A stretch of DNA of 64,000 nucleotides from the NCBI GenBank assembly GCA_020796225.1, contig CM036765.1, positions 34,748,066 through 34,812,065 of the forward strand. The letters run 5' to 3'. The position numbers and the translations under genes were made by a program. The notes beneath the pieces were generated by a model, which saw only the letters and a program-made list of their open reading frames with translations, did no database searches and had not been told where the DNA came from. The DNA is from Arion vulgaris (lineage: Eukaryota > Mollusca > Gastropoda > Stylommatophora > Arionidae). Shown in pieces: positions 6,980 through 63,326 of this stretch. Position 1 is the first letter of the stretch. Each line of letters begins with the position of its first letter.

Positions 6980-7690
6980 GTCGGAGAAGGTATGCCTGTA
7001 TGGCGGAGGATACTGGTAATAAGGAAAGCAAGCCTTCAGACAAAAATCAGTCAGAAGTGCCATACCAGGCGCCCTGACTACCCCTGAACTCATAGCAGGC
7101 GAACTCAAGAAGAAGAAGAAGAATGTCTGGGAATATGACAAGTAAAATTGATGTAGACATAAACCCATGAACCTACAAAGTAAATCTGCTGTACTGGAAG
7201 CAAGAGAACCCAAGATCAAACATCTTGGGTTCCTGATCAAACAGAATACTGCTTGAGCTACAGACGCTCACAAAACATACAACTTCAAAATCACCCTTCA
7301 GTGGATACCCACAAATCGGCATACCAGGCAATGAAAACACAAACATATTGGAGCAAGTATGGAACAAATCAGCAATCTAATCAATATGCATGCAGACAGT
7401 TCAACAATGACTTCAGAATAACTTCAAAAATGAATAATGAAACCAATGGGTAAAAGGAATGTGTCGAGCACATCTTGTAACCAGAAACTAAAAAAATATG
7501 ATGATGGTAACAAAGCATACCCATTGTACAAGTCGAACTGGATGCCTGAGAGGCAGAGTGAAAGGTGTGTTTAATCAGCGAGCCACGGAACCATCAGTAT
7601 GCATACTCTTCGATATCTGGAGGGGGGACTGAGCACCTATGGGTCTGCCCAGAGTGCAATGATGTCAGTTTAGTAACCAATAACCAAGCA
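6980..7690 (+). pseudogene. LINE RNase H and C-terminal fragment
   Basis: Pieces of a LINE-encoded RNase H tail are readable in shifting frames on the plus strand. Around 7286-7325 the sequence encodes ITLQWIPT, then, after a shift, GIPGNE, the classic last RNase H block. Near 7627-7670 it encodes GTEHLWVCPECND, the cysteine-containing C-terminus that follows RNase H in several animal LINEs; very similar 3' pieces lie at 48705-48740 (minus) and 45640-45690. Several frameshifts show that it is decayed. The block (GAA)n at about 7105-7120 may mark an older insertion inside. Confidence 0.6.
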
Positions 7691-17300: not shown

Positions 17301-20300
17301 GACAAATGTTAACAAAATAAAGAGCTGCACATCTTCTTTCCAACATTAAACAAACAACATTCTTATCTGGACAATGACAAGTTAACATGGGGCTAGAAAG
17401 GACTTCGTGTAAGAATGAATATGTGAGTAACAGATGTGCTATGGGATCTATAAGCATTCATATCCTTCATACTTTGTTGAAAGAGACAGTGCAGTGATGT
17501 TAGTGTTGTAAACTAACTAATACTGTTAGTGTATTTTATTTGTTAATGTATTATTTTTTTATTTTTTTCGATCCAGAAGCACTTGAGCTTTTCAGCTCTT
17601 CGCTCGGTGCCATGGACATCGTGAATCTCTTCGGTTCGTGCCACGAACACCGTAAATCTGGGAAATCTGTGGCTTTTTCTGCCATCCCACGGAATTGAAC
17701 CCCACACACAGAGGGATAGTCAACCGAAGTCCAACGCGCTACGAACACGCTGGGCAGACGGGCATTAATGTATTATAAACAGTGTGGACATCTTTGACTT
17801 AGCAGTAGCGAGCTCGATCTCTCTCTCGCGATCGTTCTTAAGCCGTTTTATCATTCTATTGTGATATATAAACAGCCAAACATCAGAACGGGATGTACCA
17901 CGAGCTCGATCAAAAGCCAAGAGTACCTGGTTCAAACTCTGCGCGGCAGTTTGAAGCAAATTTGTTTCCGTGGATTTTTAGAAACAGTAAAAATAGAACC
18001 CACCATTCAGAAAGCAATGGTAAACTACTGAGCATATAAGTGGTGCCAAGAAAATCAACAACTCGTTTACTGTGGTTGTTTAGACGTCCTGTAAATGAAA
18101 TGCCATGAGTGTCATTTCATTATAAACAGTACTGAGCACACTTTTCACCACTTGTTTGAACTTGTGCAGAAGTTCTACATTGCAAAGATTAGTCTAAATT
18201 CAATCCCAGACTGGGGATTCAATCTAAATGAATCTAACTCTATATTGAAAACTGAAACAGAAGTCATTGGTTATACGCTGGACATCAACCATCATGACAC
18301 AAGACTTTATAAATCATGCAATCACCAATATTTCTAAAATTGCTAATATATATTTAACTCTTTCCGCGCTTTAAGCCGCACTCTGCGCCACAGCGACTTC
18401 TGTTGCACGCTTTGCGACCTGCGCCATTCAAGTTGTTTCGTCGCCATTCGCCATTGTGCTTCGAATTGTTCCGTTTATACGTCTTTCTAGTTTTACTTCT
18501 ACTAATTTTAGTTTTTAATAGTATTCTTCCGGTTCCTAACTTAAATAGCTACTTTCACTTTTGATTTCATCGCTCATTCACCCACGTTGCAATTTGTTTC
18601 AAGTTTATTTTTCGTTGCTACAGACGCATTTTTTGTAAACAAATCAATATGGAACCAGGCCCATCAGGTAACAAGCGATATGCGTGTTTCAAGGTAGCAG
18701 CGCTATTTTCTTAGAAAAATGTATGAATGATTCTGATAATAGTAGTATTAGTAGTATTAGTGATGATTCGGGTCCCAATATATCAAGAGATTCAGGCAAA
18801 TGAGAATCATTCAAACCATCAAAGCCCAACTGGAGCAGCTAGCTGCAGCCAGTATGATTCCGATGCTGAGCCGCCTGTGCCAAAATGTCCGAGATCTGCT
18901 GTAAATACTGGTACTGGAAACGGCAGAGGTAGAGGAAAATTTGCATCTCGAACTAACAGCACCCCAGTGCCAGTGGTAAGAGAGGAATGGCAGGAGATAA
19001 GAGAAGGCTCTACAAAAATGCTTTAGATTCCACCCAAAGCAACAGCCAGGTGTGTCTCCTGAGTCAGGGCTTACCTCAGATTCGACAGCACTTGGATGTT
19101 TTTCATTGCTGTTTGATGATGAGGTAAAGTCTTTACTTATGAAGACAATAAACTCTTATGCCAGGAGTAAAATTATTGTCAACACTCCATCTCTCCAACG
19201 GTCAGTGTTCTCTCGTTGGGTTGACATTACGTCCCACGAGGTTGACAAATTTCTGGCCGTAATGATTATGATTAGAATTGCCAGACGGCCTGAGATCCCT
19301 GATTACTGGTCTCTGGCACCTGAGTTTTATGCTCCATGGTTCCACGTAATGTTTACTCGTAAACGCTTCCAAGATATATACTTTACGATGCTCCATGCAG
19401 GCGAGGAACATTCTGAAGGAAAAGATAAAATTGAACCCTTCATGAATGTTCTCCTGAAAAAGTACTGAAGTGCGTTCTACCCGTATCAAGAACTCAGTAT
19501 TGATGAGATGGTGATCGGGTATAAAGGGAGGTGGAAGTTCAAGCAGTACAATGCCAGCAAGCCAAGCAAATACCATATAAAACCTTTGGCCTGTGCGACT
19601 CGCCACGGATATGTCCACAACATCTTATCATATTTTGGTGCTGACACATCTTATAATCCTGAAATTGATTATACATCAAGTCACGCAGTGAAAATATTTG
19701 ATACATTACTTGCTAATGTTGGAACGGGCATAAGATATATGCAGATCGTTTTTACACGACCCATGTCCTTGTTGATTACCTGCTTGAGCACAAGCAATAT
19801 TACACAGGCACGCTCAACATCAATCGCGTTGGCTTTCCTCTGCAACTGAAGTCCCTCAACCTTGCATACCGTGAAATGCGCTGGTTTCAAAATCAGGATG
19901 AAACCATGATGTGCGTTGGTTATAGGGATAAAAAGCAAAGAAGAGTGTCCTCATGGTGAGCACAGACGCGGTTGTTGAGACAACACGATGCAAGGATGTT
20001 GACAAGCCATCCATAATACACAAATACAACAAATACATGAATGGGTGTGACAAGTTAGACCAAAAAGTCACCTATTATTGTTCTTTTGAAAGGAAAACAA
20101 TAAAATGGTGGAAGAAGGTGTTTTATTGGCTACTTGAAGTCACCCAAGTCAACTCCTTCATTCTGTACACCTTGACGCGAGAAGCAGACACGACAGGATT
20201 GTCCCTGAAGAAGTTCAAACGAGAGCTTCTGACACAGCTAACACAGCGTGCCGCTGTGACATTTCCTGAAGAAGGTCTTGCTCCTCAAAGGCGCGGTCGA

Positions 20301-23300
20301 CAACCAGCTGCAAACCCCATGGCACCCCTCCAAGATAAGAAACACATCATTTCTTATATCAAACGGGATAGAAGTTGTGTTGTCTGTGCTACTCCCACGG
20401 AACGCAAGCGCACCCACTTTGTTTGCCTAGGATGCCCGAATCAGCCACATTTACATCCTAAGGATTGTTTTGAGGCCTTCCACAAAGTGTAGTCAGTTAT
20501 TCACTAACTGCATGGTCACAGTGTACAGTGTACAGTTTATTTTGTCATTTTTTCAATTTTTGTGTTTGCGCCAACATTTTCATCATCATAATTGTGTGTC
20601 AACTTTTCATCATATCTTCATTTCTATTGGATATATTGTTATAAAATTTTGCCTGGACTTCACAAATTGGATTACAAAATAATTTCTAGAAGCACATAGG
20701 GATACATTCTGAAGATGCTGTTATAATGTCAAGTAAGTGTTGCATATGTCACTAACAATTTATAATTTTTCTATTTATGTTGTCATATTTGTCCCAGTTT
20801 CTTCTAAAATATTCCATGTATTGCTATTTAACTTTGTTATTCTAATAGGTTGTCCAGTTTTCTTCAAATTAGTATATGATAAGATATATATATGTTTATT
20901 TATTGATGAGTAGTTATGATTTGAAAAAATAACCCATTGCATTTTTTACCTCCCTTAAATTAAATGTAAAACTGAGGAAATAAATGGGCGTGGAAAGAGT
21001 TAATATCCAGTTTAAATGTTAGACAAGAAAAATGACACTACATTTCCAAACAAGACAAACCCTGAGGTTGTGTTTTTCCCTACTAATGATGAGTAAAAAT
21101 GTAAACTTTCTGAAATATTAAATGTTTCTTTCAAGTGTTTTCAAACAAAATAATTAATACTTACTCTCTGTAATGCACAAAACATGGCCTGACAAGGATA
21201 TTTTGTCAACGATTCTGGAATGGAGTAGATATCTGTTGCAGACAACATTTTCCGAAGTCCATAGTCAATGAGAAACACTTTTACAACATCTTGTTCTAAC
21301 AGGAGTGAAAAGATGGTGAACATATTGGTAACTTACAAAATGGTTACATTTTATTATGAAACATACAGCCACTGCTACATTTGTTCAATAATATTAAGAT
21401 AAACTGTCCAAACACAAAATAGTTATATTTAAAAAAGTTAATTGCATATCCTTTACAGGACTTTGCCAATCAACCCCAGCTTTTAACGCTGTTTGTGATT
21501 TTCTAGGCATTATTACGTTCAGTAGTTTGCCATTGTTTTCTGAACGGGTGGTGCCATCGTTCTTTTGTTAAAATCCACGCAAACAATTTGCAACCAAACT
21601 GTCCGCAGCGTGATTCGAACTCAGGGGTTAATAGACCGAGTCACTAACTCCTAGGCCACAGACGCCACCAGTTATATTTTACAACTTCTAAATTTGAAAC
21701 ACTGAACATCACCCCCATGGAGTGTTATGATGTTGGTTAAATACTCAACCAATATTCTACATGTTGAACATGAGGTCAGTTATGAGAATTTTAAAAATGT
21801 GCAATCACCTTCGCTACAGATTAATATAATGTTATTATACATTGAATACAAAGCTTTGTAAGGATGAATTAAGCTGACCTTGTAATGATAATATCTTGGC
21901 TCTGTAATAATTATGTTCACCAATTTTGGTTAAACAATACATCCCTTCTTGTGGAGTGACAACTTTTGCTGATTTAGTTTCAATAGCATGTCTGCAAAAA
22001 CCAAAAAAATTTAAACTCATTAAAACAAGTCCATGACTATTTATCAACAATTTGCAGAACAAAAATGCTGATAAGTTAGGTAGACTTTGAAAGTGGTTAC
22101 AGTTTATGATGTTGGATTCTTCTTCTTCCTCATTGTTCTTACCAGTGATTAGTTAGAATAGTAAGCCTGAGGCCTCTATGAGAACTGGTCTGAACATGTC
22201 CTCCGACATATAGTATATTTTACCTGCTTTTGATGTGTGAACTGGTGCCTAAAGACTGTATAGGTGGGTCACGACTGCAATATATTTACAGTGTCTTGTG
22301 AAGTTTGACCACAGGAGCAGACTTCCATCTCATCGATCTTGAATTTCTTGCACATGTGAACCCAGAACCTGTTGTGACTGACATACAGAGTCTGGATATG
22401 ATACAGAATCTGTTGCTTTTGTAGAAGGTAGTTTATTTAATCAGGAGGGTTATTGTCTGGGTGACTTTTCAACAGTCTCATAATAACTGCCTTAATATGT
22501 GTGTGGATTCTTTGTGCGAGTAGCCTGATGTTGACTGTTCCAAGGGCATATGTATTTGGAACAGGAATGTGTTACTGACACATGGTGCTGCCAAGTCAGT
22601 CACAGGATTCCGGCACAACAGACTTTCATAACTAGTCCAAAACTCGTAGCAAATTTTTCAAATATATATAATCCAACTAAACACACCTCTCTCTTTAGCC
22701 TGTTACGCTTTTGGCGTTTAGGGCAGCAACAAACGTACACCATTCTTCCCTGTTCATGGCCTTCCTCTGTATTGTGTTCCAGCTATGATTCATTTCCTTC
22801 AGCTCTTGCTCTATCGTCTCCTCCAGGTCATCTTGGGTCTTCACGTTTCGCCTACCCTCTGGAGTCCATCTCAGTGCAGTTTTCGTGTCGGAGCCAGTCT
22901 CCATGCGCATCACATGTCCAATCCATCTCCAGCGTCGCCTTCGGATGATAGTGCCCATATTCTCTTGTTGGCATCGTGCAAGCAATTCTTGATTCGAGAT
23001 AGTAGTCGGCCAGTACACGCGTAAGATTTTTCACAGACAAGTTGTATGAAAGGCGGAGAGTCTGGACATATCCTGTTCTGTCATTCTCCAGCATTCCGAT
23101 CCATACAGCAAAGTTGACAGCACACAGCTGTTATAGATACTAGCCTTGGTTCTGATGCTGTATTGGGCAGATTTTCAGGCGGTCTGAAGGGTCATGAATG
23201 CACTTCGTGCTTTACTCAGTCTGTTTTTAATGTCAGATCCAGCGCCTCCTTCATTGCTAATAACACTTCCAAGGTATGTGAAGCGGTTGTATCTCGGAGG

Positions 23301-26300
23301 GTTTTACCTTCTAGTTTGACTGGTGCTGGGGTTGCTATGTTCAGAGTCATTACTTCAGTTTTCTTCTGATTTATTTTCAGCCCAACCATCTCACTATATT
23401 GGTTAAGGCGGCAGGTCTTTTCCTGGATATCTCTATGTGTATGAGATAGGAGTGTGATGTCATCTGCAAAATCTAGGTCTTCCAGAGTGGATGTGAGCGT
23501 CCATCTAATACCTCTTGCCTTATCTTCCGTTGTTTTACGCATCACCCAATCTATGACAGTGTTGAATAATAGGGCTGACATAACACATCCTTGTCGCACG
23601 CCTGTTTTTACTTCAAACTTTAGTTCTGAAGTTTCAACACTGCATGCAAACTTGCTGTAGCAGCTTTTATAATATTTATAAAACACAGTGGGATTCCATA
23701 CCATCTTAAGATACGCCATAGACTTTCGCGGTGTATGCTATCAAAAGCCTTTTCAAAATCTACAAAGTTGATATAGAGTTTGCTTTGCCATTCTGTGCAT
23801 TGCTCTATGATATTTCTAAGAGCAAATATTTGGCCTATACAGCTCGTCCTCTCGAAATCCTGCTTGTTCCTTTCTCAGTTTCTTATCCACAGCGTCAGTA
23901 ATACGTTGTATGATGATTTTGCTAAGATTTTACTTGGGACAGAAAGCAGTGTTATTCCACGCCAATTATTACAATCGGCAAGGAGCCCTTTTTGGTATCT
24001 TGATGATGATGACTCTGTTCCATGCATCAGGTATTATTTGGGTATTCCATATAGTAGTAAACAACTAAAACACACACACAGAGAATAATAAAATTGTAAT
24101 GCAAAAGGGTATCAAATTAGTCTAAATCAGCAGCTACCTCGACCGCCAACTTTTGGTGACATAACAACATATCTGTCCATTTTCTAATAACCACAGATCT
24201 TGTTTATGTAATGTCTATGACATGCTTCCATATGACAGTAATGGCATTATGTAGCAATGAATAACTCTTATGCATAGACTTGTTGCATATAATGTCTTTC
24301 ATTTTCCAGACTTGTGTATTCATTTGGTCTATTATATTCTTTATTACTAAAAAAACACTGATAGCCCAAGATTATTATTTGAAAAATTATCTCATTTAGA
24401 AAAGAAAAATTTGATGGAAAGAGTAATTATACAGAACCGATCCTTGCTGACATCATCATGACCATTAATGAAAATTCTCTAGCTTTTTTGGGTCACAGAG
24501 TATCCTAGAATGAATTGAAACTCTATTTCACTTCTATTTCTAGCATAAGAAAGGATGATATGTATTGGTTATAGTTCATACTCCACTCTTAAGTAGTTTT
24601 ATAAAGTTTTAATATTTCAGTTAATATAAAAGTCGATTAGGAATGGAAAGTCACGGAAAAGCATCCGAATATTTAAAATCTGTCAAAAGACGATACATCC
24701 CCATGATAATCTGAGCATCTTTAAAACGACAGTATTATTTACAGTGTCAGTTACGCTGTTTCCAACAGTTACAAAAGCAAGATTCAGACTGAGCAAATGT
24801 GAGTTACATAGAAAAGAGTTGCATACCTTATTAATCCAGACAGCTCTTGAATAAAACAAAGCGTTTGGACATAAAAAGACCAAGGATGAACCATGTTGCT
24901 AATTATAGCAGGAAAAACTGCATCTTTGTCAGGCTTTATCTGCTTAATATTTAAACCAGACATTTCTGTGATGAGAGAATGTCACACATTTCATAATCAG
25001 TTCATTGTATCAAGTATCAAACATAGCTATATACAATTTGTTTGAAAAACTATTTCTAAAGAATACTGATATAACAAATTTTGCTGATCATTAATGGTGT
25101 TAGCACATTCTTATTTTTCTTCTTTTGTCATCACACTGTTACCAGGTTGTTGCCCAGTGTTGTGGTTTTCTGCTTTTGTCTTGCGCTGCTCTAGTGGCTT
25201 GGGTGATAATTATTTTTGCTTTTTAAACAGGATTCTGCTATGTTATCTATTCATCTTTTTTGTGGTCTTCCTCTTGCCTTCTCTCCTGATGTTCTGTTGT
25301 AGAAGATTATACACAGTGGAGTTTGGTTGCATTCTTATTAAGTGGCCAAACCAATTCATTTTTTGTTTCTCAATGTAATTCAATCCCGATTCTGTTTCTA
25401 ATTTCTTTCTTATGCTAATGTTGGTGACTGTCTTTTATGGCGTTGTTTTCACGGGCACTGCACTTCACATGTAGTTATTAACACATTAAAGTAATTAAAG
25501 AACACATTTGTTTACATGTCATGTCCCACATGAAAAATTTGTTGATTTTCATGGTTATAATGACAAATGTGAAACATTACATCATTGGCAGAAACCTGTA
25601 TTTTATACATGAAGTGCTAGTATTACACTGAATATACAGGGTGTTCAAGATAATTGCAGCCCCATTGACAAATCGAAAGTTGCCAGTTACACATTGAGTT
25701 GTGTTTATTTACTATTTAAACCGGTTCTGACTAGCTCGTCCTACGTCACATTTGTTCATCGCCCCTTCCCTACTACAATTATATTGTCACACAACATTGA
25801 CCTATACTACGTCATAACTGAACCTTCTCATTTTCATACATTAATGCCAGATTAGCTCCATTCACAGGCTGCTTTTAGCGTGAACACCCTGTAGAAGTGG
25901 TGAGGAAAAGGAATTCTGTACACACAAAATGGAAAGAAAATGACTGATATAATAATGTGGCCTTTTCGTCTTTACAGTCAATTGGCAAGTGTTTTACTGG
26001 GAAAACTTCGAGTTTGAGTTTGTCTCTCTAGTTTTTCATCTCATTCCTAAGTCTCTTTTTAAAAGCTTCTACACCTTTGCGTAATAGATCATGTACATAA
26101 TAAGCACATAAGAGCAAGAATATAATAATAAAACTGGTCTATATGACAAATTGATAGTATATTCTTACCAATGTCTTTTAACTTTCTGTCCATCTTTATG
26201 TTTCTTTCACTAGATGGACATGTAGCCTGTAGTTTATTAGATGCAATTTTGGGACTATTTTCTTGTGACATTAATCTGGATGTTGGTGATTCAGACAGTG

Positions 26301-32300: not shown

Positions 32301-35300
32301 CAACCTAATGCTCTTACTTTCATATGTGAGCAAGTCATGGGTAACAAGTCTTCTGTCAGAACAGTTAACTTTTGGTTTCAATCTAACTACTCACATTTGG
32401 TGTGCTCTTTTTCTGAAGATGCTGTTCTTTTCTTAGATGTGTTCTTGTTATCTTTACATAAGGCTGTTCTTGTTCTCTTCTCAAGATGCTGTCTTGCTGC
32501 TTATCTTTCACTTCATAAGGCTGTTCTTGTTTCTCTTCTCAAGATGCTGTTCTTGTTCATCTTTACCATAAGGCTGTTCTGTTTCTTGAGATGCTGTTCT
32601 TTTTCTCTTCTGAGATGCTGTCTTGCTTTTCTTTATCAAAATGCTGTGTTGTTTCTTTTTACCATAATGCTGTTCTTGTTTCTTGAGATGCTTCTGTTTA
32701 CCTTTCTCAAAATACTGTTGTTGTTTCTCTTTACCATAATGTTGTTCTTGTTTCTCTTTCATAAGATGCTGTTGTTTCTTTTACCATAATGCTGTTCTTG
32801 TTTCTTTCATAAGGTGCTGTTCTTGTTTCTCTTCTTGAGATGCTGTTCTTGTTTACTCTTTCAAAAGTGTTGTTGTTTCTCTTTACCATAATGCTGTTCT
32901 TGTTTCTCTTTCATAAGATGATGTTGTTTCTTTACCATAATGCTGTCTTGTTTATCTTTTCAAGATGCTGTTCTTGTTTCTCTTTCTCAAAATGCTGTTC
33001 TTGTTTCTCTTTCTCAAGATGCTGTTCTTGTTTCTCTTTCTCAAGATGCTGTTCTTGTTTCTCTTTCTCAAGAAGCTTTTCTTGTTTCTCTTTCTCAAGA
33101 TGCTGTTCTTTTTCTTCAAGATGCTGTTCTTGTTTCTCTTTATAAAGATGCTGTTCTTGTTTCCTTTCTCAAGATTGTTCTTGTTTTCTTTCTCAAGATG
33201 CTGTTCTTGTTTCTCTTTCTCAAGATGCTGTTCTTGTTTCTCTTTATAAAGAGCTGTTCTTGTTTATTTTCTCAAGATACTGTTCTTGTTTACTTTCCAA
33301 AAGCTGTTGTTTTCTTTCTCAAGATGCTGTTCTTGTTTCTCTTTCTCAAGATGCTGTTTCTTGCTTTCTCTTTCTCAAGCTGTTCTTGTCTTTCTTTCTC
33401 AAGAAACTGTTCTTGTTTTTCTTTCTCAAGATGCTGTTCTTGTTTACCTTTCACAAAATGCTGTTGTTTCTCTTTACCATAATGTTGTTCTTGTATCTGT
33501 TTATGAGGACACTCTTCTTGCTTCTGTTTCTCATACTCATTCTGTCTTTCCTTCACATGCTCTTTTTGATTGCTATGTTTCTTATCTTCCAGCCCCCTAT
33601 GATGAACCCGATTGTGTTTGAATATTTGATGACTGTGGTGCTCTTCTTCAATCTGATCCTTTTCATAAAGCTGATCTTGACTGCTATCTTTAATCTGCTG
33701 TGTCTTACCATCACTTTGGCTTGAACATTTCAAACTGTATCCATGATCTTGACTTGCAGATGGATCATAGTCATCCTTCTTGAGAACATGTGTACTGTCA
33801 TGTGAAGAGTCTAAAGTCTCACTGTCATTATCATCTGAAAGGAAAAAAGACAGTCCTTTATTAAACAAATAAGAATGCCTAAATAATGTCATTATCATCA
33901 CCATCATCCAGCTTGTCCCTATCGGAACTTAGCTCCCATGACAGCAGATAAAAATGTCTCCATGTCCTGCGTGAGGTGTCTGGCATCTGCAGCAGTCATA
34001 CTTCTTCAGTAACACCAAGGCAGTCCCCAGAGCACATCCTGCAAGACTGCCCTAGTCTGAGTAGTGAGAGATTGAAGATCTGGCCAACAGAAACAACACT
34101 ACAAGACAAACTATGGGGAACCTGTGGAGACCTCAAGCGCACCGCACTGTTTATGACACATACCGGAGTAGTCGCACAGCAAAAGTTGATCGCAGAAGAA
34201 ACTTCTTCAGTGATCTCTGGTCATGCACTCAGTTTACTGTGGACCATAAACTTGACAGTCAGCTTTAGATCTGTCAGTTTTCCCCAAAACTTAGTTTTTA
34301 GGTCGACTGGGTGTGGCCAGATGTTGCTTCTCAGCTCAACCAAGAGAGGACTGTCTTGCAGGAAATGCTCCTCTGACATGCTCACAAATTGGGCAGTCAT
34401 ACTCTTCATGCTTCACTTCGATTTTCTTTTTCAATGATACAACAACACTTGGGCTATTGCTCTTCTGCCCAATGCTATGTAATAATATCAGCAGCATGTG
34501 TGTTTGTAAGTTCTTTTATTCACTATGGCCATTTGCATGGCCATTTGAGTTGTTCGTATGTGTCGATTCCTCCCGCCAATAATGGCTGACACATTCCGTT
34601 TCTGAGGACATCTTTTTTTGAGGTTGTTCTCTAGACAGTTGCAGTCCCCTGCTGACAAGATCTGTCTTCCCGGGTTTGTCTGGAGTCGTCCTACTCTAGA
34701 TGACTTCAGCCTTCTGTTGCCGGGCTCACCAACCCAGGCTTTTATGCAGGGTGTGTCCCTGGACACTGTAGTTTAATCGCTTATGCTTAAGGGAAAGTGT
34801 CATAGAAGTAGAAGACAAGACAAGAAAAGGATGTCCTCCTCAAGAGAGAGAGGACAAGTGCTATTTGTCCCATAGCTGGGGGATGGGTTGGTTGCAGCCA
34901 GAGCATTTACCACTTGCCGGTGGGTTCTGCACTGTCACCTTATGAGGCCCCATCCTGCTCCCCGCCTTTGGTCTGGCCTTTCACCTTCAGTCTGTTCGGC
35001 TTGGTTAGACCTGCCAGGAGTTAGACTCCGCCGACATAGCCTGAAGGATCCTAAAGGCACACAAACCCTCCAACCACGATAAGGTAGGCTAATATGGAGG
35101 GCTTTTGTTCACTATAATATGTTCCATTTCTCCTGCGTGTTGCCGGGACCCGCAAGGGCGGCAAAGAATGTTAACATTGCGATCTACAAGGCATGCCGTA
35201 AGAGGCGACTGAGGTAGGAGCCTAGGAAGCTACCCTAGTAAATAAAAAGCGTTGCAGAAATCGGATGTGCTGGCCTACTTGCAGGCGCATAACTGGCTTA

Positions 35301-41724: not shown

Positions 41725-41978
41725 CCGTCCATGTGGTGTCGGGGCCCGCAAGGAAGCAAAGAATAGTACCACTGCAACCTACAATGTATGTCGTAAGAGG
41801 CGACTGATGTAGGCCCTAGGGATGCTGCCCTAGTAAATAAAAAGCAGCGCAGAAATCAGATGTCTGGCCTACTTGTAGGTGCATAACTGGCATAAAGTAC
41901 AATCGCGCTTAGGCTCAGATCATATACAAATCTAATCACACAGAGTGGTCGATATGGAGCATTTGAAGAAGAGGAAGA
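41725..41978 (+). mobile_element. SINE C copy
   Basis: Head GTGGTGTCGGGGCCCGCAAG, core GTATGTCGTAAGAGGCGACT, body CCCTAGTAAATAAAAAGC and tail GTGGTCGATATGGAGC with AAGAAGAGGAAGAAC. Confidence 0.9.
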
Positions 41979-46000: not shown

Positions 46001-46260
46001 GCATGCGCAAATAACAAACGGGACAACGTTGCGCCAGGGTAAGTGAGCTGGCACTGATAAAGACCCTACTCCACCTCCTCGTGGTGACCCTGGAAATAGA
46101 CAAAAGATCATGTCTGGCTAAGTGGGTAAGGATCGAGAGAGAGCTACTCTGGTATAGGTAATAAAGCAAACGCAGACACGCCTCTTGGGTCCTAAATACT
46201 AGTGAATGCACGCATCTTCTTCCGATGTCTAATGAAAAAGTTGCATAAATGCAAAGCAAA
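46000..46260 (-). mobile_element. Relative of the 18S-headed element body
   Basis: GCCAGGGTAAGTGAG, AAGACCCTACTCCACCTCC and GTGGTGACCCTGGAAATAG line up with the minus strand of 62640-62540 (GCCAGGGTTAGCGAG, AAGACCCTGCCCCAACCTCC, AGGTGACCCTGGAAACAG). In reverse orientation both encode FPGSPRGG. Together they define a repeat family of unknown type. Strand orientation relative to that body is inverted (this copy runs on the plus strand if the 61383-63314 element runs on the minus strand); the strand given follows the shared FPGSPRGG ORF. Confidence 0.6.
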
Positions 46261-49522: not shown

Positions 49523-50630
49523 TTCTTCTTCTTCCTCGAACGCTCCATATCGACCACTTCTTAACCACACTGTGTGATTTGTATGGGATCTGAGCCTAGA
49601 GCGATTGTACGTTGTGCCAGTGATGTGCCTACAACTAGGTCAGCACATCCGATTTCTGCGATGCTTTTTATTTACTAGGGTAACTTCCTAGTGAAAGAGA
49701 CACAGTGCGGAAAAGACCTTATTGATATAGACAATGATCACTACGACCAATTAAACAACCAAATCAACGAATTGCTTTTTTGCGGACGACCAAAGTTTAA
49801 TCTATGAAGATGAAGATCAGCTACAACATCACATGAATTCATTGCTAATAGCATGTAGGAAATACAACATGAAAATAAACAAACAAAAGACCGATACCAT
49901 GAAAATCAGCAGAACACCAAGTCAAGCAAACATACAAATAGACAACACCAGAATAAAGCAAGTTTCTGAATTCAAATATTTAGGCAGCATTTTTACACAG
50001 GACGGAAAACTAGATAGAGAAATAGAGACAAGGTGTCAAAAAGCAAACGCAGTGACCTACCAGCTGGCACCATTACTACAACACCCAAAGATCAAGATGG
50101 AAGTGAAAAGACAGATGATAAAAAGTATTTTCCTACCAACACTTTGTTACCAGTGCCAAATTTGGTTTCTTACAGCAACACACCACAGAAAGCTCACCTC
50201 GTGTGAAATGAAATGCTTGAGGAAGGCAGTGGGAGTCACCAGGAAAGACAGACTACCAAATGAGGACATCAGAAGCAGAGTGGGCATAGCTTCATGCACC
50301 GAATACATCGAAAGGCAACAAGGGCTTGTGCATTTAATGAGAATGAAATACAACCAACCACAGCATACAATAAAAAGAGATCGGGTACTAGAGAAAAATA
50401 AACACGGATATAACACAACAAGGGCGACTCATCTGGCCCTAGAACGCAAATTAAAACCCCCATCCCAACGTTTGACGGCAGAAGTGGACAGCCAACTACA
50501 TCTTCCACCTGGGAATAGACAATAGGTTTTCCTAGGTTCTACATCAGACGGCTCTTACGACATGCCTTGTAGGTCGCAGTGGTACTATTCTTTCCTTCCC
50601 TTGTGGGCACCGGTGCCACACGGGCGAGGC
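49523..50630 (-). mobile_element. SINE C interrupted by a LINE fragment
   Basis: 49523-49691 is the reverse complement of the 3' half of SINE C (CGAACGCTCCATATCGACCA, then ACTAGGGTAACTTCCTAG) and 50529-50630 is its 5' half (GGTTCTACATCAGACGGCTC, then TTGTAGGTCGCAGTGGTAC). Together they make one SINE split by the LINE at 49692-50528, with TTCCTAG on both sides of the insertion. Confidence 0.88.
49692..50528 (+). pseudogene. LINE reverse transcriptase fragment nested in SINE C
   Basis: The plus strand encodes FADDQSLIYEDEDQLQHHMN with the catalytic FADD box, continuing in one long open frame (49833-50525) through KINKQKTDTMKISRTPS, EFKYLGSIFTQDGKLDREIE, LPTLCYQCQIWFLT and LTSCEMKCLRKAVGVTRKDR to a stop. 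Just before FADD a run of six T (49776-49781) puts the upstream codons out of frame; five T would restore NELLFADD. The fragment is truncated on both sides (no 3' tail) and flanked by a 7-bp repeat TTCCTAG (49685-49691, 50529-50535). Confidence 0.9.
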
Positions 50631-55097: not shown

Positions 55098-58000
55098 GTC
55101 AGTAGCTTTTGGTATTATTGTAAAAATGTATTATTTTCACAATATCCTAAGTTTAAATTTGACAGAACAATTAGTTTACTGAAACAATATCTAAGTAGTT
55201 TTAATTAATTAAGTAGAATAAATACAAGATGCTTACGACCAGTATTGGATTGTAAGATGTGAACATGGGGTACTCTAGACAAAAGTAACATTCACAAGAT
55301 ATTTTGGAGAGAACTCTAGAGTTTTAGAAATATAACAAGAATGAGAACAAACCAATATAATCGACAACGGTGAAAAGAACAGTATGCAATGTATGATGGT
55401 CACTCTGTTTCCTTAATGAAGAATACATACACGATACAATGTGTAGGTATACACAAATGGAGCAGTAGAGAATGGAGGAGCAGGAGTTTACATGGAATAC
55501 CCAAACAACATTAGAGATACGATCAAAGCACCAATGTGGAAATTCTGTCATAACTAAAATTGATATTGAATGCTCGCGATCACCGCCCAGAACGATGTAC
55601 CAGATTTCCCCATAAATTCTATTCATGTGGAAATCTGATTCATGCAGTCTTAGCATTGGGGAGACGTAGTGATCTTGTGTGTGCTTGTTTTAAGGCACTT
55701 TGTAAGCTGATATTCATTTTCATAAGGCTGTGCGCCAGAGTGGTTACGGGGCCCAAATTTGGGGTGTAAAGAATAGAACCACTGTTACCTGCCACACATG
55801 TCGTAAGAGGCGACTAAGGGGGTTTGGATGAAATCGGATGCATGTGTCCTAAATGTGCAGAAGTCTATGCATTTAGGGGCCTACTAAACCAATGTGCAAC
55901 ATATACACATTCTTGGCAAGATCAAACATATCACAAAGAGTGATTAAAGTTGGTCGTAAGAACGAACGCAAAGAAGAAGAAGAAGAAGATAAGGCTGTAC
56001 TTGATGCAGTCGCTCCATCTTTGTGTGGTCTTCCTCTTGCTTTGTACTCGTTATACTTTTTCTATGTGGCTCTCTGTGGTAGGCGATACTAGGGCATTCT
56101 TGTCAGGTGTCCAAACCATTTAATCTGTTGTTCTGTTATGAATTGCAAGACTGGTTTCACATCCAGTCTTCTTCTGATTTTTAATTATGTCTCTTGTCAC
56201 TCCTACAGCTCTCCTAAGACGCCTCATCTCCTTTGTTATGATTTTCCACTCATTAGCTGCTGTTATTGGCTATGTTTGACACTGGTAACATAGTGTTGGC
56301 CAGAAAATCATTCTTATAAGATTTGCTTTAGTTTTTAGCTGTATCTCTTTATGTGACAACAGTGGTGATAACTGCGGCAGTTCCTGGCTAGCTTTTGGGC
56401 ATCAATTGCTGATTTCGCTATAGATACTTCCGTGAAAATTGCCTCATTGGTTTTGTTTCTGCGTTCTGGAGTTTTATTGTAAGGTTTTCTGGTTGTCTAC
56501 TTATTGCAATTGTCTCTGACCTTATATTTATTTTCATGTTGTAACTACGTTCAAATGGTTCTGGAGAGTTTCTTCGTTTTCTGCAACCAATAATTAAGCT
56601 GTCATAATTGTGATGCAGAAATTCAGACTATAAAGGTGACAACTGAGAAATTGTTGAACACCAAACCAGTTGTATTTTTGATAAATAGAAATCAGTAAGT
56701 ATTTCACGCAAGTGGTTACCGGGCCCAAATTTTGGGTGTAAAGAATAGAACCACTGTTACCTGCCATGCATGTCATAAGAGGCGACTAAGCAGGTTTGGC
56801 TGAAATCGGATGCATTTGTCCTGAACTTGTAGAAGTCTATGCATTTTGGGGCCTACCAAACCAACGTGCAACGTATACACGTTCTTGGCAAAGATCAAAC
56901 ATATCACAAAGCGATTAAGAACGGAGGCAAAGAATCAAATTAAGTACTTCAGTTCGGAATGCCATGTCTACAAGCAAATTGTCTCAAATTAAAAGAGGAA
57001 CACTATTGGATAGCTATGATCTAGACATCAGGAGCTCCAAAATGGCCTGTGCCATTGAAGATTCAATTACAGGAGTCACAGAGCATTAGCATAGATAACA
57101 TAGACGTTGGCGTGCAATAAAAACATGATTAAAATAATTTTTGTGTTATCATTCATGAATATTTGTCAAGCAGATAAGGCAATGTTTATATTCACTTCTT
57201 ACTTTCTCTTTTCTTTCAAGTTTGACATTTCAAAGTTGCATGGAAATGAATTTTCTGCCGGTGAAATTAAAGAAATAAAGGTAAGTAACAATGCAAGATT
57301 TATGTGTGACACATTAGTTACTCATGGCTTTCATTTTTAGCAAGCAATAATTGATTGTTGGAAGTTTTACTATATTTCTCTGCTGCTGATGGCTTCTGCA
57401 AGTGTCAGAAATTGTAGTATTAAGTATATACCCAAATGTTGTCAAAGCCGTCCGAGTGGTTACCGGGGCCCAAATTTGGGGTGTAAAGAATAGAACCACA
57501 TAGAACCATAGGAGGTTTGGATGAAATCGGATGCATGTGTCCTAAATGTATAGAAGTCTTATGTGTTTAGGAGCCTACCAAACCAATGTGCAACGTATAC
57601 ACGTTCTTGGCAAAGATCAAACATATCACAAAGCGTGATTAAAATTGGTCGTAAAGAACGAATGCAAAGAAGAAGAGTTGTCAAAGCTGAGATTTGAGTT
57701 GAGGATAAGCTTTCAGCTCCAGCTAAATTCTTTTGAGACATGTTCTCAAATAGCCTCAGACAGCATAGTTCAACTATTGGCGCTCTGTCGTGTAATGAAA
57801 AACAGTTTTAGGCAATATGTGTCACTAGGTTTTGCCCGTGACAATGCAGGAGAGATGATCACTTTCCTGCACCCTGAGGACATTCTATAGAGCAAAAGTA
57901 AAGTCTGTAGTAGAGATGTGAGCCAAGTCATTGTATGAAAATTGATGCTAACAATATATCATCATGTTTCTGTCCTTCTGCGGAAAGAGGCGTTGCATTT

Positions 58001-60940
58001 TATCATGTATTATTGTCTCCCTTTATACCTCACATGCTATCATTTATGTTATAAGTTTTTGCTTTGTCATCAACACTTCTTCTATTCCTTAACTTTCTGA
58101 GTAGGGGAGGTTCATTGCTGCAGATATCACCAGCTCCAGTCATCTCTGCTCTTAGCTGTCTCTTCCTAATTGTTGACTTAAGTACTTCTGGGTCTACTGT
58201 AATGTTATCTTTCCATTGCTTTCTTGCTCTTTCTCGTGGTCTCTTGTCCATCTTTTTTGTATATGCAATTTTAAGCTCTCTATTCTATGGCATTCTTTCA
58301 GTATGCCCAGTCATCGTATTCTATTAAGCTACATGGTGGTGGTAATTTGAAATAAAAAGGGTCTAAAGTCAAAGAATTGACTTCATTGCACAGGGTTTTA
58401 CCCCATATAGCTCAGCTCCTCTCCACAGAAGTGGCTTGCCACCTGCCGAAAGCATTGCATGAACTCCGTAGCTCCATCAACAATCCTAAGGGTCTCTGGA
58501 AAAAATGTACTTGTGAACAGAACCATGCAGTTCGAATTCAAACCCACGACCTTCGGAACATATGTCAAAGACTTAGCCTCAGAGACCCCTGTTATCTACT
58601 AATTACTGCTATTTTCTGAGGAACTAGTAATATGGATCATTTGTCTGATGTTCTACTTCTCCATTTATTGTGCATTTTCCTCTCATTTGGGACCCTCGCT
58701 GGTGCTATGGAGTTCGTGCACTGCAGCAGAGATCTTCCTGTGTAAGAAAGAGATCGGAGCACACATGGTTACTCACCGAAGTACAATGATGATGGTCCAA
58801 TCAATCAGTCATTTTACTCTGATAAATCTGCCTCTTCATAGTTTATGCTGGTATCAGATTGTCATAGTTTATTATTTGATATTTCAACTGTTTACATTGA
58901 TTGGTTTTAATTGCTTTTCCTATATTTCACAAAATGTTTTAAAACTGTCTGTATTTTAACCAGGCTGAAGTAGGGACAAACCAGCTAACTTCTGTCTATG
59001 AATTGAGTGCATTCGATGGAGAGGTGTGTATAAGTGAATTTTATTTATTAATATATATTTTTTTCATGAACTGTTTGAGTGAAGTAGCGTAACTTCGTTC
59101 TCATAATGGTTTAACTATTGCTAGATGAATTTTCAGAATATTTTATGTACTTTATTATATTAATGTTTGTATTTGATCAACAACTTGTTGACTATATTGT
59201 CTACATAAAGAAATTTAGTATCAAAATGTTCAGAAATAGACGGGTAAATGAATCGAGAAGTGTAGTTTTTACATATATGTACTTGCTTCTTATCTAATAA
59301 GAACTGAGAGGACAAAAATAAAAAGAATGTAAAAATGTATTAACTTTATCACGTAGACCATAAATTTTGAATTATAATCCACTTAGTTTAAAATACAACA
59401 CATCTGTATATATTTACAAGATTACTGTACTTGATAGCACATATTGAATTATTCGTACAAGTGAAAAATATAAACACTTTTTATGACGGAAGGCTGTTAA
59501 AAAAACACCATTACTCGAAAATGATCTTGTGGATAGATAAACCGCTTTCATTTTTGATGGCCCTGTGATAAACTGCTGATAATAGGGAAGTTTATGTCAT
59601 ATTTTCTGAAATCTTATTAGACTTAACACAGACACTCCATAAAGTTGGTCAAGTAGTAGCATGTACCTTGTGGAATGTCACTTTCATCACAGACTGCGTA
59701 AATGAAACAGCAGACCAACTGGTCAAGGAAGGTGCTGCAGGATAGCAACCGGATGTGCCAGTTACCTACCACCAAAAGAAAAGGATGATTAAATCAATCA
59801 GAAAGCTTCAAATACCAACACGAGATGATTACTATATTAGCAGATTGGAACATGTTGTCATTCTGCGCCTTAGAACAGGACACAATCGGCTCACAACCAC
59901 ATGTATACAAAATTCAGGATTGGCAATTCAGCCATGTGGACAGGCATATCAGACTGCAGAGTACATACGTCTTCTTCTTGCGTTGTTCTTTACGACCAAT
60001 TTTAATCACTCTTTGTGATATGTTTGATCTTTGCCAAGAACGTGTATACGTTGCACATTGGTTTGGTAGGCCCCTAAACGCATATATTTCGACACGTTTA
60101 GGACATGTGCATCCGATTTCAGCCAAACCTCCTTAGTCGCCTCTTCGACATGCGTGGCAGGTAACAGTGGTTCTATTCTTTACACCCCAAATTTGGGCCC
60201 GGTAACCACTCGGTCGAGTACATACTTCAAGACTGCCCCAAATATGATATACTGAGGCAAACTCACTGGCCTAATGAAACAACACTCGACATAAAACTAC
60301 ACAGACCTCTGTGTGAGCTACAAAAGACAAAGTTTATACAAGAGACAATGTTAAATATATAGACACTATTTCAAGCAAATGAAAGGAAGGATTACAAACT
60401 GCCTAAAAAACTCTGTCACTTGCTAGTTCTCTTGCCTCCTCCAGCATCATGTTAACAGTTTCTTTGATGTTCTGCTGCCACCTTCATCTTGGTTGTCCCC
60501 TGCCTCGTACTTCAGAAATCATGTCTTCCATTACCGTTCTCTCCAAACCACTGTGACGTTTAAAGTCGCCAAAATATTTCATCTTTCTGGGACATGATGT
60601 TATTTATGAGCCCCTCGATATGCAGGTCTTTTTTTCTTTCTTTTCTCTGTTCAGGATGTTCTAAGAACTTTTTTGTAACACTGTGTTTCAAAATAAAGTT
60701 GGTATCGGTCACTTAATGACACATGCATATACGCTCTGAGCCATTACCAGTGACCTACTGGGCAAGAAGAGTGAAGACATCTGTAGATGTGTGTGTTTTG
60801 TAAGAGGACAATGTTTGGGGATATATAACAATTAGTGTAAATTTTGAAGATTGCACAAATTTGTACAAACGTTTGTTTTTTTCCTCAGGGACTTGATGTC
60901 TCACCACTAATTAAGTCAAGAGAAACATCTGCCACATTAG
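54998..60940 (+). CDS. POLR1G: RNA polymerase I subunit RPA34/POLR1G-like gene (4 exons seen)
   Basis: Exons 54998-55097, 57221-57280, 58964-59023 and 60889-60940 have good acceptors and donors and compatible phases (first starts after one base, the next joins are phase 0). The joined translation runs F-rich start CEIPADFKEENQ, then DVYLIRVPKG | FDISKLHGNEFSAGEIKEIK | AEVGTNQL...YELSAFDGE | GLDVSPLI...ATL. It aligns without gaps to the conserved core of RPA34 proteins (E.WLI.AP..F.....NG......G.QI..G). RPA34 with RPA49 forms a TFIIF-like dimer on RNA polymerase I in the nucleolus. The first coding exon and the Lys-rich C-terminus are not found here. Introns hold three SINE D copies, LINE and SINE B debris. 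Confidence 0.65.
55732..55988 (+). mobile_element. SINE D, full length with 10-bp TSD
   Basis: Flanked by ATAAGGCTGT (55722-55731, 55989-55998). 5' end GCGCCAGAGTGGTTACGGGG; core CATGTCGTAAGAGGCGACTA; tail CGAACGCAAAGAAGAAGAAG. The GAGTGGTTAC head resembles a tRNA-Ser/Leu box A; no clear box B. Confidence 0.93.
55999..56590 (-). pseudogene. LINE C-terminal region
   Basis: On the minus strand, pieces of a LINE thumb/C-terminus follow each other: a block with MKINIRSETIAI near 56510-56540, a K..L.W..+..C.P.L..L segment, and an arginine-rich end near 56030-56200. The SINE D at 55732-55988 inserted just beside it. Frames are broken. Confidence 0.55.
56705..56935 (+). mobile_element. SINE D copy
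   Basis: Head AAGTGGTTACCGGGCCCAAA, core GCATGTCATAAGAGGCGACT, body GGGCCTACCAAACCAACGTG and tail CACAAAGCGATTAAGAACGG without the GAA run. Confidence 0.9.
57221..57280 (+). CDS. POLR1G: POLR1G-like exon
   Basis: Acceptor TTTCTTTCAAG and donor GTAAGT; 60 bp, phase 0 to 0; encodes FDISKLHGNEFSAGEIKEIK. Confidence 0.65.
57449..57676 (+). mobile_element. SINE D with 11-bp TSD
   Basis: Flanked by GTTGTCAAAGC (57438-57448, 57677-57687). Head CGTCCGAGTGGTTACCGGGG. An internal deletion removed most of the CGTAAGAGG core. Tail AATGCAAAGAAGAA. Confidence 0.93.
58030..58320 (-). pseudogene. LINE C-terminal fragment
   Basis: Open frame on the minus strand: KMDKRPRERARKQWKDNITV, then EVLKSTIRKRQLRAEM and GAGDICSNEPPLLRKLRNRR. 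The GRP.KRW.D-type step is that of LINE C-termini. Confidence 0.6.
58360..58595 (-). mobile_element. tRNA-derived SINE B copy
   Basis: Left GGGTCTAAAGTCAAAGAATT, middle GGGTCTCTGGAAAAAATG, right head with box B GGTTTGAATTCG on the minus strand. Nearly full length. Confidence 0.85.
58680..58800 (+). mobile_element. SINE A 3' fragment
   Basis: GGGACCCTCGCTGGTGC, GAGATCTTCCTGTGTAAGAA and GGTTACTCACCGAAGTACAA are the reverse complement of the left part of other A copies, so this 3' part lies on the plus strand. Confidence 0.8.
58801..58963 (+). other. POLR1G-like intron, nothing recognised
   Basis: Pyrimidine-rich toward the acceptor at 58963; no repeat recognised. Confidence 0.4.
58964..59023 (+). 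CDS. POLR1G: POLR1G-like exon
   Basis: Acceptor TTTTAACCAG and donor GTGTGT; 60 bp, phase 0 to 0; encodes AEVGTNQLTSVYELSAFDGE. Confidence 0.65.
59024..59639. other. POLR1G-like intron, nothing recognised
   Basis: AT-rich, no family recognised. Confidence 0.4.
59640..60365 (+). pseudogene. RNase H LINE 3' end interrupted by SINE D
   Basis: Encodes NETADQLVKEGAAG (last RNase H block), then KKRMIKSIRKLQIPTRDDYY, VVILRLRTGHNRLTTTCIQ, CGQAYQTAEYI; after the SINE it continues LQDCPKYDILRQTHWPNETT, LDIKLHRPLCELQKTKFIQE and a stop. This is the C-terminal zinc-binding-like region (C..A.QT.EHILQDCP) of a LINE family also at 33985-34205. Removal of the SINE restores an almost continuous frame. Confidence 0.88.
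59969..60215 (-). mobile_element. SINE D, full length with 10-bp TSD
   Basis: Flanked by GAGTACATAC (59959-59968, 60216-60225). 247 bp; on the minus strand it starts GACCGAGTGGTTACCGGGCC and ends CGCAAGAAGAAGACG. This copy defines both ends of the family. Confidence 0.95.
60400..60695 (-). pseudogene. LINE J C-terminal fragment
   Basis: Reverse complement of the LINE J end (TTATTTATGAGCCCCTCGAT, CAAACCACTGTGACGTTTAA, CTCTTGCCTCCTCCAGCATC). Stops and deletions present. Confidence 0.75.
60889..60940 (+). CDS. POLR1G: POLR1G-like exon (last visible)
   Basis: Acceptor TTTTTTCCTCAG and donor GTATGA; 52 bp, phase 0 to 1; encodes GLDVSPLIKSRETSATL. The remaining exons lie beyond or were not recognised. 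Confidence 0.6.
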
Positions 60941-61370: not shown

Positions 61371-61382
61371 ATGCAGGCATTC

Positions 61383-61560
61383 TTCTTCTGCGATCGTTCT
61401 TCACGGCCAATTTGATCATTCTTATTGTGATGTATAATTGGTCCACTGGCAAGAACGGAGTGATCTACGTCGGGACGATTGTGTGCCCATGGTGACTAGG
61501 CCCGCCCGTCCGGTTTCAGCCAGCTTTTGATTTACTAGGGTGAACTTCCCTAGGTACGAT
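61383..61560 (-). mobile_element. SINE C/D-like 3' module of the 18S-headed element
   Basis: The reverse complement contains CCTAGGGAAGTTCACCCTAG (like SINE C CCTAGGGAAGCTACCCTAG), TAAATCAAAAGC, GTTCTTGCC and GTGAAGAACGATCGCAGAAG (like SINE D CGTAAAGAACGAACGCAAAG). It combines the middle of C with the tail of D. Confidence 0.72.
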
Positions 61561-61600
61561 CCTTTCGGATCTACGCCTTTCGATCAACTTTGCCGTATAT

Positions 61601-61945
61601 TTGGGCTTTGTGATCTACGCCAGGACAGTGAGTTACGCTGCTTTACCCGTTCTGACTGAGAATATTTCTCGGGCTTGTCCTCGGACGGCGTCTTACTCGT
61701 ATAAAACACCGTGTAAAGTATCTGCCTTCGTCAATGTTCAGGACCCGGACTTCCTGTCTGATCCGTACATCGTCTGCCTTGCTTTACCGCACATTTTTGA
61801 GTTTGATCCGGAGAAGGAACATTCTCAGCCTTTTCTAGAGCGCGTTGATCGTGGCAATTTGCAATTAACCTCGAAAGGCACCGGCATGGGACCTAGTACA
61901 AACAATGTAGAGGGTCGTTTCAGTCGGCGCTATCAACGCAACTGA
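61601..61945 (+). other. Unassigned ORF inside the GC-rich body
   Basis: A 114-codon ORF on the plus strand (DPDFLSDPYIVCLALPHIFE, then EKEHSQPFLERVDRGNLQL) runs against the direction of the element. No family recognised. On the minus strand a shorter ORF (61996-62187) reads LVHNETTRPGKTVQGTVRLK, faintly like an arrestin-fold strand pattern; this is not enough for a call. Confidence 0.25.
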
Positions 61946-62666
61946 GGATTTTGCGCCGCCACCATCACCCGCTCCAGTTATTCCGGGGATGTTAGTTACA
62001 GCTGCAATCGAACCTTGCCCGGTTGCCCCAAGGCTGGCATTTCCTTAGGTATTTCCAACCTCAGTTCTTCGGGGGTGTTAATTTTTAATCGCACAGTACC
62101 TTGCACGGTTTTCCCAGGGCGGGTAGTTTCGTTATGCACTAAAACGCAACTTGTTCTTTTGCGCTCGGCAAACCTTGCCCAGTACATGTATCTGCACTAG
62201 GCCACCGATGCGGGGTCAGCCGTAATCTTCTCTCGTACCGACACGAGGGTAGACTTTTATTCATTACGGTCCTGTTTTATTTATTCTTGCCGACGGGCTG
62301 GCAATGTTTGCCCCTCCTCGGGCTTCGAGCTTTGCCCTACGTGGGCATACGTTTGGTCACTGGATGCACCTCTCAACCATGTCAGAGACGTTTCGTTGCT
62401 GTTTCTTTGCGTTCAGGGACTTGAGCAATATCTTGTTGGACATTGGTCAGGAGATTTGTGCATTTTGTTTATATGTATCTTTATTGCATTTCCTACTTGC
62501 ACTGCTACCACTACCAGTAGTTCTCCCCGATCCCTGCCCCTCTTTGCCAGACCGGAACCAGAGTCTGTTTCCAGGGTCACCTCGTGGAGGTTGGGGCAGG
62601 GTCTTGTAGCGCTCCCCTCGCTAACCCTGGCTCATGTTACCACCATAACCTCATGAGCCTTTGACC

Positions 62667-62801
62667 CCGATCGTGTCATCAATTGAACCTCGACTGATTT
62701 AATGAGCCATTCGCGGTTTCACCGTGAGACAGTGTGAACTTAGACATGCATGGCTTAATCTTTGAGACAAGCATATGACTACTGGCAGGATCAACCAGAT
62801 A
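62667..62801 (-). rRNA. 18S rRNA 5' end fragment (about 135 nt)
   Basis: The reverse complement starts TATCTGGTTGATCCTGCCAG, continues TAGTCATATGCTTGTCTCAA, AGATTAAGCCATGCATGTCT, AAGTTCACACTGTCTCACGG, TGAAACCGCGAATGGCTCAT and TAAATCAGTCGAGGTTC. These are the invariant first helices of eukaryotic 18S rRNA. After GAGGTTC agreement fades; GATGACACGATC may still be 18S. It is a fragment embedded in a retroposon, not a functional gene. Short ORFs predicted across it are spurious. Confidence 0.95.
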
Positions 62802-63314
62802 GCTGTCATGGACGAGACTGGGCCGACAATGCTCGGGGTAGGGAGACAGCGTTCTGTGCAGAGCGGATCCCGACGTCCCCTGCAAAAATGCGAAATTGAA
62901 GCGAAACGACAGAGCACTCGCTTCCCACAGATTTGCCGGCAAGACTTGCGCCTCGCCAAGCAAAGAACGACACGATGTTTCTACCTGCGGACCCACAAGC
63001 TCGTTGCAGGCCGGGCCTTTAACGAGACCCCGTCGAGCGCTTAAAATTTTAGACTGACTGTATCACATCGCGACCGAGAAACTCCGATATACGGACACAC
63101 ACACACCACCACCAATAAGGCCGCGAGCAGTCTTAATAGCAGACGCTACCATGTCCCTTATTCGCTGGGAGCCTCGTTCGCGTGAAAAAGCGAAGAGGCA
63201 CGCGCAGCCGTTAGAGACTATGCACGCAATTGGTTATCGACACTGGGGAACCGCGTTCGCTGACTGGCTCGCCCGTCCGGTTATTTTCAAAACGGGGAGG
63301 CACAGCCCAGAGAT
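62802..63314 (-). other. Probable 5' external transcribed spacer of rDNA
   Basis: This GC-rich, unique-looking sequence lies immediately upstream of the 18S start on the same strand and ends exactly at the target duplication. If the insert derives from a polymerase I transcript, its outer end (63314) marks the transcription start and this is the complete 5' ETS (~513 nt). The assignment is positional; I cannot compare it with the species' rDNA. Confidence 0.6.
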
Positions 63315-63326
63315 ATGCAGGCATTC

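Follow-up and report, generated by a model that had tools for sequence, protein, structure and literature searches.

Dispersed retroposons of Arion vulgaris with a predicted ribozyme and a head probably copied from RNA polymerase I transcripts

SINEs are RNA polymerase III (Pol III) units that inherit their head, and SINE heads derived from 28S rRNA exist. In Drosophila, R2 SIDEs as well as R2/R1 hybrid SIDEs are found in 28S genes (PMC3414825, cited throughout from an excerpt), and R8 of Hydra is a LINE of the R2 superclade that is inserted in 18S genes (PMC5035012, likewise from an excerpt). The ribozyme of R2 cuts up to 36 nt upstream of the insertion junction, and tandem copies of upstream rRNA occur at some R2 junctions (PMC3774820, also from an excerpt). 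In the literature that we searched, no report of dispersed retroposons starting at an RNA polymerase I (Pol I) start was seen. In this paper, we describe an insert in a stretch of 64 kb of the Arion vulgaris genome (hereafter the window), together with its relatives in the same genome, and we argue, with a probability of about 0.72, that it stems from a ribozyme-led retroposon that sits in 18S genes and is transcribed by Pol I, the uncut transcripts of which were retroposed elsewhere, the window copy included.

The insert of 1932 bp is enclosed by a perfect 12-bp direct repeat, ATGCAGGCATTC, found at both ends just as a first-pass annotation of the sequence had described it, and its parts follow one another on the minus strand (Table 1). 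The same annotation had put the 18S portion at about 135 nt; the 5' end of 18S is indeed present, but its length is 133 nt, with the border at 62669|62668. This portion matches the Rfam model SSU_rRNA_eukarya from model position 4 with 45.1 bits (E 1.9e-10; gathering score 50), and the start of the body matches drz-agam-1 at 62611-62533 with 24.8 bits (E 0.039; gathering score 37); both scores are below gathering, and the scan of the whole window at gathering scores returned no match. The longest minus-strand ORF of the copy, 105 aa, lies inside the head, and no reverse transcriptase was seen in the element as judged by the lengths of its minus-strand ORFs. The duplication and the 3' tail are the hallmarks of target-primed retrotransposition by non-LTR elements, as had been proposed for the insert. 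Its 3' end resembles short repeats of the Arion vulgaris genome, and repeats that have a GAA- or GA-rich tail and match the element in parts of its 3' domain occur in the window at 17828-17871, 35221-35277, 41815-41855, 49634-49688, 57625-57674 and 59970-60019. By eye, the window also contains an ORF resembling a piggyBac-type transposase (19001-20492), and ORFs resembling fragments of LINE reverse transcriptase (22695-23737 and 49755-50525).

Table 1. Features of the insert and of a related stretch in the 64-kb window.
Feature	Position	Strand	Basis or content
Target-site duplication ATGCAGGCATTC, copy at the 3' tail side	61371..61382	.	direct repeat; duplication script
Target-site duplication ATGCAGGCATTC, copy at the 5' end side	63315..63326	.	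direct repeat; duplication script
Whole insert	61383-63314	minus	5' ETS, 18S, ribozyme fold, body, SINE-like 3' domain, GAAGAA
5' external transcribed spacer (ETS) from the transcript start	62802..63314	-	matches rDNA units L074 and L075; start common to 45 of 51 headed loci
18S rRNA nt 1-133, ending ..GATGACACGATC(C), the putative 18S insertion point	62669..62801	-	Rfam RF01960 below gathering; rDNA goes on GATCC|TACTTGG
Predicted R2-type HDV-like ribozyme fold, 5' end of the body	62524..62668	-	drz-agam-1 below gathering; 33-pair fold; starts of body-only copies
Predicted ribozyme cut	between 62669 and 62668	-	coincides with the 18S/body border
Body, apparently non-coding	61555..62523	-	longest minus-strand ORF inside is 63 aa
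SINE-like 3' domain and GAAGAA tail	61383..61554	-	kin to short repeats, seen both in the window and in the flanks fetched
Second, related ribozyme-like stretch, part of another element	46018..46150	+	sequence and fold comparison

A genome search with the whole insert gave at least 44 matching places (40 of 7016 candidates scored), with tens of relatives at 88-96% identity, and a search with the head gave at least 52 (40 of 1132 candidates scored); together, the matches are spread over 24 contigs. The loci fetched from the first search (L001-L040) contain copies with two kinds of 5' end. Twenty-seven loci carry headed copies, 25 of which start at base 1 of the ETS, intact or slightly altered, while the other two (L004 and L025) are 5'-truncated; the 14 body-only copies all start at the body start of the window copy, 12 with GGGGTC and 2 with GGGTC. 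Reading of 24 extra headed loci, mostly without their 3' end, raised the number of headed loci to 51. A script identified target-site duplications of 10-21 nt for 35 copies (23 headed and 12 body-only), of which eight contain one mismatch and 28 begin with GA or AGA; it found none for L015 and L030, scored L004 improperly, and left L008, L025 and L040 unscored, the duplication of L008 being visible by reading. The copies are thus dispersed, with varied duplications, rather than confined to rDNA, and their insertion sites have no evident sequence in common with 18S. Because of these tens of relatives at 88-96% identity and of the duplications around 35 copies, the existence of the family is, on sequence grounds, far beyond chance.

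Comparison with rDNA shows where the heads begin. The 18S pattern spanning the putative insertion site, GATGACACGATCCTACTTGGATAACTG, occurs 26 times exactly in the genome, and two of these places were read upstream as rDNA units (L074 and L075). In both units, a shared upstream (promoter) region ending in ..TTAATCCACTCCCGGAACATACTAT is followed by ATCTGGGTTG.., the border between upstream region and transcript reading ..GGAACATACTAT|ATCTGGGTTG..; the ETS is 532 nt long in L074 and 529 nt in L075, longer than in the window copy, and 18S continues through GATCC|TACTTGG. Alignment of the window head to the two units, from which it differs at 40 of 623 and 40 of 622 positions, respectively, confirmed the earlier assignment of 62802-63314 to the 5' ETS; together with that of L009, this head is the most distant from present rDNA (6.4%). 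Headed copies begin with ATCTGGG, directly adjoined by the duplication, at the border where, in rDNA, the shared upstream region gives way to the transcript, as had been expected for a 5' end at the start of the ETS. The exact start ATCTGGGTTGT stands at the genomic flank in 45 of the 51 headed loci, in which the match to the promoter side is at most 3 nt and none runs into the promoter; among the other six, L001 is altered, L004 and L025 are truncated, bases are changed in L036 and L064, and a piece of head stands at the start of L052. In addition, the 29-mer of the start has 336 exact matches in the genome, and the upstream 12-mer joined to the first 14 nt has 9, with 0 for the reversed-pattern controls. 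Further copies with the same 5' end, for which the first-pass annotation had recommended a search, therefore exist in such numbers that its description of the event as rare no longer holds. Its placing of the Pol I start at 63314 stands in part: relative to rDNA, the window copy lacks 15 nt, TTGTGCGTCTGCAAA, and reads ATCTCTGGG instead, and since its first ~20 nt are altered in this way, it cannot fix the start alone, though the other copies point to the base. Taken together, a Pol I transcript very probably templated the window copy and hundreds of others.

The ribozyme at the start of the body was evaluated with an alignment of nine sequences, three from the family of the window element and six from related elements, and the structure was drawn from these nine sequences themselves, which favours the fold in the scores that follow. 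With 33 pairs and an HDV-type pseudoknot, the fold has 90.9% of its cells paired, versus 28.5-46.8% for slid versions; eight pairs are changed on both sides, as many as in 16 of 500 shuffles, and the covariation score is reached by 0 of 500. The number of pair types is not above that of the shuffles (277 of 500 reach it), no pair of P1 is changed on both sides in the nine sequences, and free folding of the region, by a program that cannot form the pseudoknot, is unremarkable (z -1.08). The fold and its compensatory changes support a 5' HDV-like ribozyme as a model. P1, as we read it, pairs GGGGTC with GACCCT and has a G-U pair at the predicted cut, which therefore falls on the head/body border, while the Rfam alignment of drz-agam-1 puts P1 elsewhere. 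All 14 body-only copies start at this predicted cut, 12 of them with a scripted duplication. Fewer than five of the six P1 pairs are present in 16 of 45 scored headed copies versus none of the 14 body-only ones (Fisher p 0.007), in counts that are not all independent, as several copies have one junction in common; the 45 exclude L048, L049, L052 and L053, which were left out, and L056 and L068, which have no body start. A broken P1 does not always account for an uncut RNA, since all six pairs are kept in 21 of the 45 and L048/L055 also retains GGGGTC. In three headed copies (L049, L056 and L068), the truncation of the body extends beyond the ribozyme.

Relatives of the second ribozyme-like stretch of the window were seen at L025:1229, L035:3690 (= L045:116) and L044, and twice in L041. 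At L045:116-1560 lies a related element of ~1.45 kb with a ribozyme-like start and a similar SINE-like 3' end, an indication that ribozyme-led retroposons form a wider class in this genome; no reverse transcriptase was recognised by eye among six ORFs of at least 150 aa, and the idea of an autonomous LINE behind it was dropped. An old element in L041 (from position 7356, reverse complement) has a piece of ETS, 71% identical, downstream of a piece of ribozyme and body.

These observations would fit the following course of events. A non-coding retroposon of ~1.3 kb, with an HDV-like ribozyme, a body, a 3' end of LINE/SINE type and a GAA tail, would enter 18S genes, mostly after nt 133 (GATCC|TACTTGG), and Pol I, starting at its normal site, would transcribe the interrupted unit. 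In most cases, the RNA would then be cut by the ribozyme where 18S meets the body, and the liberated body RNA, taken up by the reverse transcriptase of a LINE, would give body-only copies at sites without evident likeness to 18S. Where the cut failed, often because the junction lacked the first strand of the ribozyme, the whole primary transcript would be copied from the Pol I start. On this sequence evidence, the donor is probably a ribozyme-led element in 18S, which agrees with the earlier suggestion of a body element residing in 18S, with the site now put at nt 133.

A donor of this kind might be expected in the assembly as 18S units interrupted near nt 135 by the body, and the assembly was searched for them; among its nine promoter-bearing rDNA units, no interrupted 18S gene was seen. 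The four that were read (L074, L075, L077 and L078) are uninterrupted, L077 being much altered; four others have the exact uninterrupted site, and the one at C7:66597957 has the downstream 18S 23-mer. A pattern for the 3' junction between element and 18S, tail-N{0-25}-TACTTGG.., had 0 matches in the genome. The missing interrupted gene weakens the model without refuting it, because rDNA is usually under-represented in genome assemblies. Contig C59 was considered as an rDNA contig and discarded, as its first 20 kb shows elements and no rDNA. Three further places (C1:43294857, C2:21327924 and C3:24906902) have transcript starts without the exact promoter pattern and an uninterrupted 18S site ~630-660 nt on; they are possibly longer retrocopies of pre-rRNA, as in L048/L055.

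By eye, there are ~20 different joins between 18S and body, which are exact, or have small deletions or one or more extra bases; in L051 the join includes a 73-nt repeat of the ETS/18S border, and in L056 and L068 truncated bodies are joined with microhomology. Position 133 is not exclusive, as two joins (L048/L055 and L076) lie at other 18S positions: L048/L055 runs ~1 kb into 18S before a body of family B (see below), and the unit in front of the array at C4:14918 ends near 18S nt 345 by our own count. Heads are also joined to one another: the head-to-head join GATCC|ATCTGGG occurs 27 times exactly in the genome, L053 has six heads in a row with three of five joins exact and units that differ from each other, and L010 has two heads and a body within one duplication (one mismatch). 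Since the units of one array differ, repeated copying of a single circular head RNA is disfavoured; such arrays may have arisen either by the enzyme jumping to cut-off heads or by headed RNAs re-entering 18S and undergoing a new round of transcription.

In 12 ETS columns, the two rDNA units are alike and four or more heads deviate from them; eight of these columns were used, and columns 34, 88, 215 and 507 were left out. By reading, the states form one series, 00000000, 11000000, 11001000, 11111000, 11111100 and 11111111, the last being that of today's rDNA. This series accommodates 44 of 48 heads, with L062, L064 and L066 counted as intermediates and gaps passed over, and leaves L007, L009, L036 and L065 outside. 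The filler junction GTTCAATAGA|GAATTC|AAAAGG is found at stage 11000000 in six copies (L015, L016, L023, L024, L025 and L072), and a junction of the same type, one base different, stands in L014 at stage 11111000. The GAATTC junction thus seems, from these stages, to have outlived a replacement of the ETS, as expected in a homogenising rDNA array, and we take this, through the single copy L014, as the best single sign of residence in rDNA.

The rival that keeps most weight dispenses with residence in 18S. The reverse transcriptase, on reaching the 5' end of the free body RNA or earlier, would jump to a pre-rRNA fragment ending at 18S nt 133 and copy on to the transcript start. Jumps to cellular RNAs are described for R2 in the excerpt of PMC3414825, and they would suit heads that mostly end in GATCC while the body end varies, even to the truncated body of L049, as well as the 27 exact head-to-head joins, the three exact ones among the five of the six-head array, and the lack of an interrupted 18S gene in the assembly. 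On the other hand, such jumps presuppose that RNA ending at nt 133 is abundant, and the ribozyme would produce this RNA only with the element there; several heads stop ~8-18 nt before GATCC; and one filler junction in seven copies, at two ETS stages, is unexpected from one-off jumps. We consider this explanation unlikely, and prefer a ribozyme-led donor within 18S genes.

Under the alternative that the first-pass annotation had offered, a stable dispersed family would inherit its rRNA head, for example as a promoter. It is true that hundreds of copies have one 5' end, and that sibling copies have junctions of the GAATTC type in common, but the trees of heads and bodies differ. The tree of bodies, built from 39 rows and with strong support for 11 of its 36 inner branches, splits families A and B at 100/100, which differ in their 3' ends, and family A mixes headed and body-only copies. 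In the head tree (27 rows), 0 of 24 inner branches is strongly supported, and one group of six comes near (94/98), partly owing to junction bases in the rows. By eye, a different ribozyme variant marks out a third family of bodies, C, which has the same head at the same 18S position. As far as these sequences can tell, there are at least three families of bodies, with heads drawn from one pool of ETS alleles. L006 and L022, for instance, differ at 2 of 534 ETS, 0 of 113 18S and 64 of 1128 body sites; on average, A and B are 0.064 apart in the body and 0.030 in the ETS, a contrast of only about twofold, because old copies have private changes. Moreover, stage 00000000 contains copies of A and B, stage 11000000 of B and C, stage 11111000 of all three families, and stage 11111100 of A and B, so that the ETS alleles of the different body families follow a single order that ends at today's rDNA. 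Copies also begin at the transcript start, and hence without the upstream region. Neither the trees nor the order of ETS alleles shows the head passing down with the body as in a SINE; an inherited head is accordingly very improbable, and we have rejected it. Since at least three body families share one ETS pool, and one filler junction has two ETS stages, the heads appear to have been taken repeatedly from rDNA. Least probable of all is that the copies are ordinary chimeric pseudogenes of rRNA or stem from faulty assembly; rDNA is hard to assemble and rRNA retrocopies are known, but matches lie on 24 contigs, 35 copies have a duplication in their own flank, and divergence varies.

The donor in 18S may also be part of a larger circuit. 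Tentatively, and with the odds against it, we suggest that Pol I-powered retroposons cycle between 18S and the rest of the genome, their uncut transcripts re-entering 18S and each passage adding an ETS and 18S part in front; head-to-head arrays would then count passages, and dispersed copies would store successive states of the ribosomal spacer. R2-like elements were already known to ride Pol I transcripts, but within rDNA. If the preferred reading is correct, hundreds of insertions outside rDNA also go back to Pol I transcripts, uncut co-transcripts serve as templates, and genome sequence by itself suffices to locate the Pol I start and the ribozyme cut through the copies. The copies would likewise preserve former ETS sequences in their order of succession, a record usually wiped out by concerted evolution, so that the tempo of rDNA homogenisation becomes directly testable.

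Among the described systems, the window element would, on the preferred reading, work like an R2 SIDE: like the SIDEs (PMC3414825), it is short and has variable 5' junctions, a predicted HDV-like ribozyme at its 5' end and a putatively borrowed 3' end, and it would need co-transcription with rRNA and the enzyme of another element. However, in contrast to these inhabitants of 28S, it is dispersed, linked to 18S, ~1.3 kb long, and in many copies preceded by the whole 5' transcript (PMC3414825); because it is dispersed, and its residence in rDNA was not seen in the assembly, we do not file it as one. With R8 it has in common the association with an 18S gene, but R8 is a LINE (PMC5035012), whereas the window element has no visible reverse transcriptase, and the window copy does not encode the one that marks R7 and R8 as 18S-specific LINEs. 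The predicted cut at its 5' end and its variable junctions recall the R2 ribozyme, and the variety of its 18S/body joins resembles the 5' junction variation of R2 where the RNA is cut at the element end; the rRNA retained here, though, is the whole 5' part from the transcript start (PMC3774820). Finally, SINEs with rRNA-derived heads (5S type) are likewise dispersed retroposons that begin with rRNA sequence, but the head of the window element appears to be re-acquired from rDNA, and to start at the putative Pol I start.
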